DNA of 64,000 bases, taken from contig VWVY01000002.1 in assembly GCA_009846685.1 (NCBI GenBank), positions 496,001 to 560,000 of the forward strand, in the 5' to 3' direction. Source of the DNA: Rhizobiales bacterium SYSU XM002 (lineage in GTDB: Bacteria; Pseudomonadota; Alphaproteobacteria; Rhizobiales; Beijerinckiaceae). This document shows, piece after piece, positions 29,324 through 63,512 of this stretch. The notes beneath the pieces are model-generated. The model worked only from the letters and a program-made list of their open reading frames with translations. It had not been told where the DNA came from and searched no databases. Position 1 is the stretch's first letter. The number at the start of each line of letters is the position of its first letter. Both the position numbers and the translations under genes were made by a program.

Positions 29324-30078
29324 CGCTGCTCGTTGAAAATATCACCAAGGCCTATGGCGGTCAGGTCGTCGTCGATCATGCGAGCCTCAGGGTCGACACT
29401 GGCGGCATGGTAGGCCTCATCGGACCGAATGGCGCCGGAAAATCGACCTTTTTTTCGCTCGTGACAGGGTTCATCGAGGGCGAGGGCGGGGCGATGACGC
29501 TTGATGATCGCGCCATCGGATCGCTCTCGCCGCAAGCGCGCGCTCAGGCCGGCATGGTGCGGACGTTTCAGGTGCCGCGCGAGTACACCCATCTCACCGT
29601 GCGCGAGAACCTGATGGCCGCCGCGCCGGGGCAGGCGGGGGATTCCCTGCTCAACGTCTTCTTCCGCCCCGGCAGGGTTGCGGAAGAGGAGAAGGCGCTT
29701 GCGATCCGTGTCGAGGAGGCGATCGCGTTCCTTCGCCTTGGCGCTGTCGCTGATACGCCGGCGGGTATGCTCTCCGGCGGACAGAAGAAACTTGTCGAAC
29801 TCGGGCGCGCGCTGATGACAGGCGCGAAGCTGATCCTGCTCGACGAACCCTTCGCAGGCGTCAATCCGGTGCTGATCGAGGAATTGTCCGAGCGCATCCG
29901 TGAACTTAACGCGCGCGGCATCGCCTTCCTGATCATCGAGCACGATCTCGGCGCGCTCTCCCGCCTCGTGCCGATGCTCTACGTGATGGATCGTGGCCGG
30001 ATCATCGCCTCGGGCGCCCCTGCCGATGTGCTCGCCGATCCGCTTGTGCGCGAGGCTTATCTCGGGGGGACAACATGA
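29320..30078 (+). CDS. livG: HAAT ABC ATPase, LivG type
   Basis: The 252-residue ATPase has Walker A GPNGAGKST near residues 36-44, AQAGMVRTFQVPREYTHLTVRENL as the LivG-type Q-loop region, signature LSGGQKKLVELGRAL, Walker B LILLDEPFAGVNP and switch His in IIEHDLG. The DEPFAGVNP version is characteristic of LivG. The start at 29320 overlaps the livM stop, and its stop overlaps the LivF-type start by 4 bases, so the three are translationally coupled. Confidence 0.93.
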   Translation: MTLLVENITKAYGGQVVVDHASLRVDTGGMVGLIGPNGAGKSTFFSLVTGFIEGEGGAMTLDDRAIGSLSPQARAQAGMVRTFQVPREYTHLTVRENLMAAAPGQAGDSLLNVFFRPGRVAEEEKALAIRVEEAIAFLRLGAVADTPAGMLSGGQKKLVELGRALMTGAKLILLDEPFAGVNPVLIEELSERIRELNARGIAFLIIEHDLGALSRLVPMLYVMDRGRIIASGAPADVLADPLVREAYLGGTT

Positions 30079-41282: not shown

Positions 41283-44903
<3,621 letters not shown>

Positions 44904-60540: not shown

Positions 60541-60569
60541 TGATCCGCGCGCGGGTGACCGGCGTATAA
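60541..60569 (+). promoter_or_regulatory. ECF-type promoter before the ChrR-like gene
   Basis: TGATCC at 60541-60546 is followed after 16 bases by CGTATAA at 60563-60569, resembling the -35/-10 pair I know for RpoE-ChrR (ECF11) sigma factors. Transcription would start near 60575, giving a leader of about 47 bases before the GTG at 60622. Base identities are seen; assignment to that sigma class is from memory of the family and should be treated as inference. Confidence 0.5.
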
Positions 60570-60621
60570 TGCCCGCATGTCGCCGGAAACGGCCCGAAAC
60601 CCAAGAGGAGCAAGGCGAGCA

Positions 60622-61269
60622 GTGAACGCCGAAGCCGGCAATCGGGATATACCATCGCGCGAGGCGCTGCTTGCCGCCTATGCCGCAGGGCAGTTGCCTT
60701 GCGCCGCGCATGCGCTCGTTGCTGCGCATCTCGAAATCTCGCCGGAAAATCGGGTCTTTGTTGCCTCGCTCGAGGAATCGTTGGCGAAGGAATTCTCGGT
60801 CGATCGTCCGTGCTGCGAGATCCGCAAGCGCGAGGCGCGTCTCGACGCGATCTTCTGCTGCGACCAGCAGGCGCACAAGGCACCGTGCGATTCCGATATC
60901 CCGCGCGCGCTCCGGCATTTCCTCGGGCGCTGTGTCGATGAGATGCCCTACCGGACGGTGCTGCCGGGCATTCGCGAATGCCGGATCGAGGGCGAGGGCG
61001 GCATGAATGCGATGCTCTACCGTATCGCGCCGGGCAAGAAGATCCCCCAGCATTCGCACGAGGGCACCGAGATCACGCTGGTTCTGCGCGGCGGCTTTTC
61101 CGACGGGACGGGGCACTATGTCCGCGGCGATATCGCCATCGCCGACGAGGATGTCGATCACATTCCCGTCGCCGACAAGGGCGAGGAGTGCGTCTGCTTC
61201 GCGGTGCTCGACGCGCCGCTCCGGCTGACCGGGCCTGTCGGTCGTCTGCTGAACCGCTTCATGCGCTAG
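60622..61269 (+). CDS. ChrR-like cupin protein without the anti-sigma zinc site
   Basis: The 215-residue protein aligns with ChrR of Rhodobacter sphaeroides. The C-terminal cupin keeps all four ligands at matching spacing: His144, His146, Glu150, His180 (HSHEGTEITLVLRGGF; DVDHIPVADKGEEC). In the N-terminal anti-sigma domain three of four zinc ligands are gone: ChrR His6, His31, Cys35, Cys38 correspond to Pro11, His36, Ser40, Asn43. No sigma-factor gene is adjacent. It overlaps the 3' end of the convergent photolyase gene by 11 bases. I use the GTG at 60622 because the promoter places transcription start near the ATG at 60577. Confidence 0.82.
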   Translation: MNAEAGNRDIPSREALLAAYAAGQLPCAAHALVAAHLEISPENRVFVASLEESLAKEFSVDRPCCEIRKREARLDAIFCCDQQAHKAPCDSDIPRALRHFLGRCVDEMPYRTVLPGIRECRIEGEGGMNAMLYRIAPGKKIPQHSHEGTEITLVLRGGFSDGTGHYVRGDIAIADEDVDHIPVADKGEECVCFAVLDAPLRLTGPVGRLLNRFMR

Positions 61270-62725
61270 CTGAAATCGCCTTGAAAGCTGCGAGCGCCCG
61301 CGCGCGCGCGGCATCGTGCGGCACGATCGGGTTGGGGTATGTCTCGCCGAGCGTAACGCCGGCTTTTGCCCGTACGGCGGGCGGCGCTTCCCACGGGCAG
61401 TGGATGTAATCGTCGGGCAGTCCGGCGATTTCCGGTACGAAGCGACGGACATAATCGCCCGCCGGATCGAATTTCTGGCCTTGGCCGATGGGGTTGAAGA
61501 TACGGAAGAACGGCGCGGCGTCGGCACCCGAACCCGCGACCCATTGCCAGCTCGCCGCATTGCTGGCCGGGTCTGCGTCGCATAGCGTATCCCAGAACCA
61601 GGCTTCGCCCGCGCGCCAGTCCTGCATCAGGTGCTTGATGAGGAAGGAAGCGGCGATCATCCGCACGCGGTTGTGCATATAGCCGGTCTGCCAGAGCTCG
61701 CGCATCCCGGCGTCGACGAGCGGATAGCCGGTGAGGCCGCGCTGCCAGGTGCGCAGGGCGTCCGCGTCGGTCTGCCACGGGAAGGCGTCGAACTTCGGCT
61801 GGAAGTTCGCGCGCGGCAGATCGGGGAAATGAAACAGCAGATGATACGAGAACTCGCGCCAGCCGAGTTCGGCGAGGAACTTGTCGAGATCACGCTCGGA
61901 GGCCCCGCTGCTGCCATCGAGCATTGCCTGCCGTGCCGCATGCCAGATTTGCCGTGGCGAGATGTCACCGGTGGCAAGATATGGCGAAAGCCGCGAGGTG
62001 GAGGGAAGGTCCGGCCGGTCGCGGTTTTCGGCATAGCCGCCGAGCCCATCCTTCAGGAAAGCAACGAGCCGTTCGTGTGCGCCTCGCTCGCCAGGTTTCC
62101 AGCTTGCACGGAGACCGCCAGCCCAGTCCGGTCGGCGTGGTGGAAGATCGAGCGCGGCGAGCGGGGTCGCGTCCGGAACCGTCTCGTGGATGGATTGGGG
62201 CTGCTTCGGTTCAGGAAGTGGCGCTGACGGTTCGCGCAAGGCCCGGCACGCTTTCCAGAACGGCGTGAAGACGCGCATCGGCCCGCCCGCCTTCGAGCGG
62301 ATTTCCATCGGCTCATAGAGCAACGCGCCGTTGAAGCTCTCTGCGCGGATGCCCCTGGCCGTCAGGTCCTGCTTGATCGCGCCATCGGTCTCGCGCTCGG
62401 CAGCACCATAGCGGCGGTTCCAGGTGACGAGATCGCAACCGAGATGGGCCGCCAGCTCGGGGATGATGGCGCGTGAATCGCCCCTTAGCAGGAGCATCCT
62501 GCTGCTTTTCTTTTCAAGATCCGCTTCCAGTGCCGCCAAGGCGTGGTGAAGCCACCAGCGGCTTGCGCCCCCGCGTGGCCGATGGTTGGCGTTGTCTTCG
62601 AGCACGAAAACGGTGGTACATTCCCCTGCCGAGGCGGCACGGGTCAGTGCGGGGTTGTCGCCGAGGCGCAGATCGTTCCGGAACCAGTGCAGCGCGCGGC
62701 GCGGGGCGTTGGTGAAATCGCTCAT
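61259..62725 (-). CDS. phr: Deoxyribodipyrimidine photolyase
   Basis: The 488-residue class I CPD photolyase repairs pyrimidine dimers with light. N-terminal antenna domain: ALHWFRNDLRLGDNPAL, TVFVLEDN. C-terminal FAD domain: SRLSPYLATGDISPRQIW, ELGWREFSYHLLFHFPDL, FDAFPWQTDADALRTWQRGLTGYPLVDAGMRELWQTGYMHNRVRMIAASFLIKHLMQDWRAGEAWFWDTLCDADPASNAASWQWVAG (landmarks GLTGYPLVDAGMREL, MHNRVRM, DPASNAASWQW). The ATG at 62725 begins the family. It is adjacent to the ChrR-like gene; in R. sphaeroides phrA is a core target of RpoE-ChrR. Confidence 0.95.
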   Translation of the reverse strand: MSDFTNAPRRALHWFRNDLRLGDNPALTRAASAGECTTVFVLEDNANHRPRGGASRWWLHHALAALEADLEKKSSRMLLLRGDSRAIIPELAAHLGCDLVTWNRRYGAAERETDGAIKQDLTARGIRAESFNGALLYEPMEIRSKAGGPMRVFTPFWKACRALREPSAPLPEPKQPQSIHETVPDATPLAALDLPPRRPDWAGGLRASWKPGERGAHERLVAFLKDGLGGYAENRDRPDLPSTSRLSPYLATGDISPRQIWHAARQAMLDGSSGASERDLDKFLAELGWREFSYHLLFHFPDLPRANFQPKFDAFPWQTDADALRTWQRGLTGYPLVDAGMRELWQTGYMHNRVRMIAASFLIKHLMQDWRAGEAWFWDTLCDADPASNAASWQWVAGSGADAAPFFRIFNPIGQGQKFDPAGDYVRRFVPEIAGLPDDYIHCPWEAPPAVRAKAGVTLGETYPNPIVPHDAARARALAAFKAISASA

Positions 62726-62837: not shown

Positions 62838-63512
62838 ATGCCCTTTTCGAGGCGTACTGTGGTCGCCGGATTGACCTGCCTCGGCTTTGCAGCGGGCGGC
62901 TCGGCCAAGCCCGGCCGGGATGCCGAGCGGATGCTGCTGCATTCCGCAGAGATCGACGATGGCGACACGGTAGCACGGCTTATCGGCATCGGCACCGACC
63001 TCGAAGTTCGCGATGCGCGCGAGCGGACGGCGCTGATGATCGCCACGCACAAGAATCACGTCGAGGTCGCCCGCATCCTGATCGGGGCAGGCGCCGATGT
63101 GAACGCGAAGGATTCGATCGGCGATTCGCCGTTTCTCTACGCGGGCGCGGAAGGGCGGATCGAGATTCTTCGCCTCACGCTCGCGCATGGTGCCGATCTC
63201 GCCGCGACGAACCGCTATGGCGGCACGGCGCTGATTCCGGCTTGCCATCACGGGCATGTCGAGGCTGTCTACATGCTGCTGAAGACGGCAATCGCCGTCG
63301 ACCATATCAACAATCTCGGCTGGACCGCGCTGCTGGAAGCCGTGATCCTCGGCGATGGCGGCCCGACTTACGTCGAAATCGTCGATGCGCTTGTCCATGC
63401 CGGCGCGAATCCGCGCATTGCCGATCGCGAGGGCGTTACGCCGCTGGTGCATGCGCGGCGACGGAGATTCACCGAAATCGCGGCAATTCTCGAACAGGCG
63501 TCGAAACGCTAG
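62838..63512 (+). CDS. Exported ankyrin-repeat protein
   Basis: The 224-residue protein begins with a twin-arginine-like signal (PFSRRTVVAGLTCLGFAAGGSA) and then about five ankyrin repeats, recognisable from RTALMIATHKNHVEVARILIGAGADVNAKD, SPFLYAGAEGRIEILRLTLAHGADLAATN, and GTALIPACHHGHVEAVYMLLK. It probably acts in the periplasm as a binding scaffold, like AnkB proteins. No catalase or other partner is adjacent. tRNA-Asn follows on the other strand. Confidence 0.85.
   Translation: MPFSRRTVVAGLTCLGFAAGGSAKPGRDAERMLLHSAEIDDGDTVARLIGIGTDLEVRDARERTALMIATHKNHVEVARILIGAGADVNAKDSIGDSPFLYAGAEGRIEILRLTLAHGADLAATNRYGGTALIPACHHGHVEAVYMLLKTAIAVDHINNLGWTALLEAVILGDGGPTYVEIVDALVHAGANPRIADREGVTPLVHARRRRFTEIAAILEQASKR

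Follow-up and report, generated by a model that had tools for sequence, protein, structure and literature searches.

A ChrR-family protein without zinc cysteines as the probable trans-acting anti-sigma factor of an unlinked ECF11-type sigma factor in an alphaproteobacterial clade

The 64,000-nucleotide stretch of DNA analyzed here (the window) carries a chrR-like gene that stands next to a photolyase gene and, as the original prediction had noted, has no sigma factor gene beside it. Its product lacks zinc ligands of the anti-sigma domain and keeps the metal ligands of its cupin, which raises the question of whether the protein is a sensor that no longer binds sigma or an anti-sigma factor that folds without zinc, the two readings that had been put forward for it. 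The gene was placed at 60622..61269 on the forward strand (215 residues from a GTG codon) on the basis of TIGR02451, PDB entry 2z2s and the translation. The GTG is preceded by a purine-rich stretch and fits the homologues, whose matches start near residue 13; an alternative ATG at 60577 opens a frame of 230 residues (60577..61269, +) that would be nearly leaderless. The whole protein scored 159.1 bits against TIGR02451 (curated cut-off, 124.5), which assigns it to the ChrR family, and its best PDB matches were the R. sphaeroides ChrR entries 2z2s and 2q1z (phmmer, E 7.6e-31). The AlphaFold2 model, built on a 74-row alignment (pLDDT 86.3, pTM 0.81), shows four helices followed by a cupin. The anti-sigma domain (residues 13-79; 60658..60858, +), delimited from this model, Foldseek and the alignment, comprises helices at residues 13-21, 27-39, 44-60 and 70-79, and the cupin domain (residues 94-204; 60901..61233, +) matched Pfam Cupin_7 with an E-value of 3.6e-13. 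The top six Foldseek hits of the model were ChrR chains from SigE-ChrR complexes (E 1.9e-16 to 4.1e-11), so that model, structure search and Pfam match agree on the architecture of the ChrR family, a four-helix anti-sigma domain joined to a cupin.

Alignment to R. sphaeroides ChrR, with residues counted from the GTG, confirmed that the zinc ligands His6, Cys35 and Cys38 correspond to Pro11, Ser40 and Asn43, the pairing of His6 with Pro11 resting on an offset because phmmer aligned ChrR from residue 9 onward. The remaining zinc ligand, His31, which the original prediction did not mention, is retained as His36. Where ZAS proteins have a zinc site of the form His ... His-x3-Cys-x2-Cys, the window protein thus has Pro11, His36, Ser40 and Asn43, and for this reason it was not counted among the ZAS proteins. 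The cupin has its full set of four ligands, as predicted (His144, His146, Glu150 and His180 in the protein's own numbering); those of R. sphaeroides ChrR are His141, His143, Glu147 and His177 (PMC6852236). The cupin also contains Cys190-x-Cys192. Outside it, cysteine pairs lie before anti-sigma helix 4 (Cys64, Cys65) and at its end (Cys79, Cys80).

Relatives were examined in several samples. The family sample comprised 199 genomes, 94 of which had a chrR match; 58 of these were assigned to group A and 32 to group B, and four with weak matches (G016, G040, G133 and G138) to neither. Assignment to group A rested on similarity to the window proteins in these searches themselves. Identity was 40-62% in group A (38% for G037) and 28-44% in group B, where some matches were partial. 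A second set consisted of the best 80 of 145 relatives in published genomes (the named loci), which partly overlap the family genomes and include Rhabdaerophilum, Bosea, Alsobacter, Stappia, Roseibium, Pannonibacter, Prosthecomicrobium and Chthonobacter. The class-level sample was made up of 40 of 146 matching genomes, taken from the better matches with some skipped.

An alignment of homologues, suggested together with the original prediction as a check on the ligand loss, bore it out. Both zinc cysteines were missing from all 58 group A proteins and from all 80 named loci (best 80 of 145), the latter figure being partly a product of selection because these loci were picked as the nearest matches of an alignment that itself lacks the zinc ligands. 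Loss of the His6 ligand was not universal, since 3 of 58 family proteins and 2 of 80 named loci carry a histidine in that column. The histidine equivalent to His31 was kept in 57/57 family proteins and 80/80 named loci, and the complete set of four cupin ligands in 57/58 and 80/80, respectively (named loci again the best 80 of 145). The Cys-x-Cys of the cupin occurred in 58/58 family proteins; in the named loci it is there by construction, since the search pattern included this stretch. One group A member, the ChrR of G037 (L106, G037:C1:2622734-2623324), lacked not just the two zinc cysteines but also three of its four cupin ligands and the promoter motif, and both it and its sigma factor (L167) sat on long branches. 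Across the alignment, anti-sigma helices 1, 2 and 4 carried 3.1-3.2 bits per column, helix 3 carried 2.3 and the cupin 3.08. Within helix 4, Leu74 was invariant, and Arg70 and Ile77 reached a conservation of 90% or more in two alignments. Pooled over 15 disjoint pairs, pN/pS came to 0.18 in the anti-sigma domain as compared with 0.10 in the cupin; by this measure the anti-sigma domain is the less constrained of the two. Judged from these comparisons, the loss of zinc is a clade-wide trait and not decay.

Zinc in the anti-sigma domain of R. sphaeroides ChrR is described as required for inhibition (PMC6852236), and a survey of class I anti-sigma domains puts the zinc-less proportion at about 44%, which makes such domains common (PMC7406223). 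Zinc-less ChrRs with a sigma gene still adjacent were found in 7 of 31 group B family proteins and at 5 of 40 class-level loci (L113, L120, L131-L135, L369, L384, L388, L391 and L394); ligand loss therefore does not mean sigma loss, and the zinc site has seemingly been lost several separate times.

R. sphaeroides RpoE uses a TGATCC-type promoter, and the window chrR is preceded by one of this ECF11 type at 60541..60569 (+), identified in the sequence and by pattern search (-35 TGATCC at 60541-60546, a 16-base spacer and -10 CGTATAA at 60563-60569). The looser pattern TGATCC-N14-18-CGTA occurs three times in the window against 0.27 expected from shuffling; what makes the chrR promoter, already proposed as TGATCC-N16-CGTATAA, convincing is its conservation in relatives. 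The two other matches lie on the reverse strand at 29980-30004 and 44094-44121, with spacers of 15 and 18 bases. Strict TGATCC-N16-CGTA was found upstream of chrR at 47 of 56 group A loci, as compared with 0.01 expected from mononucleotide shuffling (the 56 exclude L097, where the upstream sequence is too short, and the motif-less L106 of G037). The same motif preceded 20 of 31 linked sigma-chrR operons in group B and none of 58 unlinked sigma genes (from 58 of 59 genomes, a sigma fragment in G124 being left out). A relaxed motif lay upstream of chrR in 75 of the 80 named loci (best 80 of 145), with a 16-base spacer in 73. These motif counts suggest that chrR is driven by the sigma factor and, since the sigma gene lacks the ECF11 motif, that the sigma factor does not regulate its own transcription.

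The source genome (3.46 Mb in 15 contigs, scored 100% complete) contains a single ChrR-like gene at E<=1e-5, on contig C8, and one further weak match (E 0.048) with an internal stop. Four of its proteins matched Sigma70_r2. One is an ECF sigma factor, encoded on another contig (C9:327890-328570); the remaining three are an open frame of 692 residues, interpreted as RpoD, and two proteins that are RpoH-like by eye. Searches with sigma region 4 gave 14 matches at E<=1, six of them above the cut-off; apart from the ECF sigma itself, L008 and L011 were inspected and are response regulators by eye, and the remaining matches had no region-2 match. The best PDB match of the ECF sigma was R. sphaeroides RpoE (2q1z_A, E 4.9e-44), and in a tree with eight other ECF sigmas it clustered with RpoE and the ChrR-adjacent sigmas (SH-aLRT 100); its assignment to the ECF11 type consists of this similarity and this tree. 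Because ECF29 sigmas have no known anti-sigma factor, that group was also considered, with its reported promoter motif of GGGAAC / GCATCCAA (PMC6180224), and it was tentatively set aside on the TGATCC-N16-CGTA promoter at chrR, which the sigma is predicted to read. The case that would speak against the original prediction, an rpoE-chrR pair elsewhere in the genome, did not appear in the ChrR and sigma searches of the contigs. Among 30 sigma loci, the sigma gene adjoined a divergent ialB-like gene in all 30 and a convergent DUF1232 gene in 15, and no conserved co-directional anti-sigma-like gene was seen; the commonest co-directional frame was present at no more than 13 of the 30 and looks by eye like an opposite-strand shadow.

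The group A chrR and sigma genes occur together with few exceptions. Of the 199 family genomes, 57 had both, one had chrR only, two had the sigma only and 139 had neither; the three exceptions are G107 (73% complete), G131 (83%) and G031 (97%, in about 450 contigs). Shared ancestry inflates these counts, and Fisher's test of co-occurrence was therefore not taken as a probability. In 53 of the 57 pairs the two genes were on different contigs, which in draft genomes is not proof of distance, and in the other four they lay 1.3-2.1 Mb apart on one contig. No sigma gene was present at any of the 58 group A chrR loci within flanks of about 1.5 kb (for L096, L097 and L044, hardly any sequence was available on one side), so that the rpoE-chrR operon of ECF11 systems was not found at these loci, nor was linkage in the 57 genomes; in group B a sigma gene stood beside chrR at 31 of 32 loci. 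The group A sigmas fell on one side of a branch with SH-aLRT 94, as did the group A ChrRs with 99 (the fragment L137 was omitted from the trees and L063 from the sigma tree). Likewise, flanks of up to 4 kb around the 80 named loci (best 80 of 145) held no sigma gene, and the group A sigma was present in 22 of 22 genomes checked from among these 80.

A wider tree, in which 31 of the 58 group A rows were included, joined three class-level zinc-less ChrRs without a nearby sigma gene to group A with a support of 98. The tree also contained six zinc-bearing ChrRs (L367, L373, L379, L385, L390 and L397) that have the ECF11 motif and no sigma gene within 5.0-6.6 kb; a dehydrogenase match lay nearby in five of the six. 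They are possible evolutionary intermediates. As zinc-bearing proteins with the motif and without a nearby sigma, they hint that unlinking came before zinc loss, the branching in that part of the tree being poorly supported.

The neighborhood of chrR in relatives bears on which of the two genes moved. A match to a short-chain dehydrogenase followed chrR on the same strand in 72 of the 80 named loci (best 80 of 145), with a gap between the matches of 31 bp at the median and up to 1.7 kb; a convergent methyltransferase (CMAS) gene was present in 59 of the 80, in 53 together with DUF1365. In the family loci, where flanks were shorter, the dehydrogenase was found at 43 of 58 and was absent beside the window chrR. 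Group B pairs were flanked by CMAS or DUF1365 at 13 of 32 loci and by the dehydrogenase at none. We take the DUF1365 and CMAS genes to be equivalent to the lipid-modifying genes of R. sphaeroides RSP_1087-1091; the likeness of the dehydrogenase to the classical rpoE-chrR neighbor falls short of orthology, dehydrogenases being a large family. As this neighborhood, dehydrogenase with CMAS and DUF1365, resembles the classical one and lies beside chrR, chrR most likely stayed at the ancestral locus and the sigma gene moved. The lipid-gene cluster is absent beside the window chrR. Elsewhere in its genome, a search made without a positive control gave no DUF1365 match, and the methyltransferase query gave one match at 29%.

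What stands beside the window chrR is a DNA photolyase gene (61259..62725, -; Pfam PF03441 and PF00875), convergent to it. The predicted tail-to-tail overlap is real, 11 bp long and inclusive of both stop codons, but as a meaningful link between the two genes it is weak, since the adjacency is rare: a photolyase adjoined chrR at 3 of 58 family loci (flanks of about 1.5 kb) and at 6 of the 80 named loci (flanks of up to 4 kb; best 80 of 145). A conserved partnership was on these counts rejected for most of the clade. Three of those six loci (L204, L243 and L245) have a strict ECF11-type promoter before the photolyase; pattern search found none upstream of the window photolyase. The photolyase gene phrA is reported as an RpoE target in R. 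sphaeroides (PMC7074977, PMC6852236). By eye, an ankyrin-repeat-like open frame adjoins the photolyase at window positions 62838-63512 (+).

The strict motif was further counted in 17 genomes of the genus, where it occurred 2 to 9 times per genome as compared with 0 or 1 for the reversed pattern. The genes inspected downstream of strict sites were chrR, DUF1365, an rpoH, DUF3833 and DUF2177, and other inspected sites lay before small unknown frames or no recognizable gene. In the source genome, only the chrR site among seven strict sites was plainly placed before a gene, and the others were within or across long open frames, a weak test given that a long antisense frame also covers the promoter of chrR. 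An rpoH of this genome is preceded by TGAACC-N16-CGTA, with one mismatch. The regulon in the source genome may be very small; in R. sphaeroides, rpoHII and furan fatty acid genes are described as RpoE targets (PMC6852236, PMC7074977).

Taken at the level of sequence and predicted structure, these observations make it highly probable that the window protein is a zinc-free ChrR anti-sigma factor acting in trans on an unlinked ECF11-type sigma factor, with negative feedback only. The protein would be a ChrR-family anti-sigma that no longer uses zinc in its anti-sigma domain and would inhibit the one ECF sigma detected in the genome, the ECF11-type RpoE homologue whose gene lies on another contig. 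The cupin with its intact metal ligands is the likely sensor. On exposure to singlet oxygen or an organic hydroperoxide, ChrR would free the sigma or be degraded, the freed sigma would transcribe from TGATCC-N16-CGTA promoters including that of chrR, and newly made ChrR would restore inhibition. Unlike the autoregulated rpoE-chrR operon, such a circuit would contain negative feedback alone, because the sigma gene has no TGATCC-N16-CGTA promoter.

An alternative is that the anti-sigma domain is a relic and that the protein, a cupin sensor or enzyme no longer tied to sigma, works alone or on another target. This would account for the missing zinc ligands and the missing adjacent sigma, and chrR, whose promoter is predicted to be sigma-driven and which in relatives lies among genes for lipid-modifying enzymes, is placed as an effector could be. 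We nevertheless consider it improbable, for helices 1, 2 and 4 are conserved like the cupin, the domain is under purifying selection, and the helix-4 residues Leu74, Arg70 and Ile77 have been kept nearly constant in a protein that is accompanied by a single sigma clade in 57 genomes, with three exceptions. This half of the original prediction thus appears unsupported, and its other half, the anti-sigma that folds without zinc, is the one favored by the conserved domain, the selection on it, the resemblance of the model to SigE-bound ChrR and the co-occurring ECF11-type sigma.

Alternatively, ChrR could be the anti-sigma of an RpoH or an undetected ECF factor, and the ECF11-type sigma could be controlled in some other way, for example by transcription, as the missing ECF11 motif (0/58) and the fixed position next to the divergent ialB-like gene (30/30) would allow. 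That the genome shows one ECF sigma only, that the most frequent co-directional neighbor of the sigma gene recurs at no more than 13 of 30 loci, and that chrR has an ECF11 motif and neighbors resembling known RpoE targets make this very unlikely. Just as small a chance is given to another metal or redox site having taken the place of the lost zinc site, for instance one formed by Cys64, Cys65, Cys79 and Cys80. Similar pairs around helix 4 occur in L020 (G137), and L172 has cysteines at two of the four positions; in the 74-row alignment, however, each position holds a cysteine in only 1 to 3 rows, which leaves the clade-wide loss unexplained and the cysteines a local role at most. An alternative zinc site made from them was accordingly rejected as not conserved, and a local redox or metal site is possible.

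The proposed zinc-free, trans-acting ChrR shares with the RpoE-ChrR system of R. sphaeroides (PDB 2z2s/2q1z) the two-domain fold, the cupin ligands and a homologous sigma, and the dehydrogenase and lipid-modifying genes beside chrR in the window's relatives recall RSP_1087-1091. It differs in that the window clade lacks both zinc cysteines, with His6 lost in most members, and in that its sigma is unlinked and has no ECF11 motif of its own. In having a four-helix anti-sigma domain without zinc it resembles the zinc-less class I domains RseA and RskA, but unlike the domains of that survey, which come from the neighborhood of sigma genes, it is soluble, carries a cupin and is unlinked (PMC7406223); the survey allows for orphan anti-sigmas in other ECF groups (PMC7406223). 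The rpoE-chrR genes of R. capsulatus are described as adjoining an operon with a photolyase/cryptochrome gene, much as the window chrR adjoins a photolyase, in a genome described as having no RSP_1087-1091 homologues; unlike in the window, rpoE and chrR are still together there (PMC7074977). Among the matches listed in a search of titles and abstract openings in open-licence PubMed Central, we found no description of an unlinked zinc-free ChrR, and an earlier description is possible.

In evolutionary terms, we put at even odds a scenario in which a large alphaproteobacterial clade (Beijerinckiaceae, relatives of Stappia and Roseibium, and others) has rewired its singlet-oxygen circuit: the sigma would have left its ancestral locus and lost autoregulation, and the anti-sigma would have stayed, kept its sigma-driven promoter and then lost its zinc, leaving the cupin alone to sense. 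What the anti-sigma zinc does in the response to singlet oxygen is described as unknown in PMC6852236, and a model zinc peptide is reported to react fast with singlet oxygen (PMC6432622). If the cupin does sense alone, release of zinc from the anti-sigma domain would not belong to the switch in every species. The persistence of the system without zinc in a natural clade would separate structure from sensing and make the question directly testable. The unlinked pair also suggests that sigma/anti-sigma surveys based on gene neighborhood miss a conserved partnership, and it would allow two natural forms of one circuit to be compared, one autoregulated and the other with negative feedback only.
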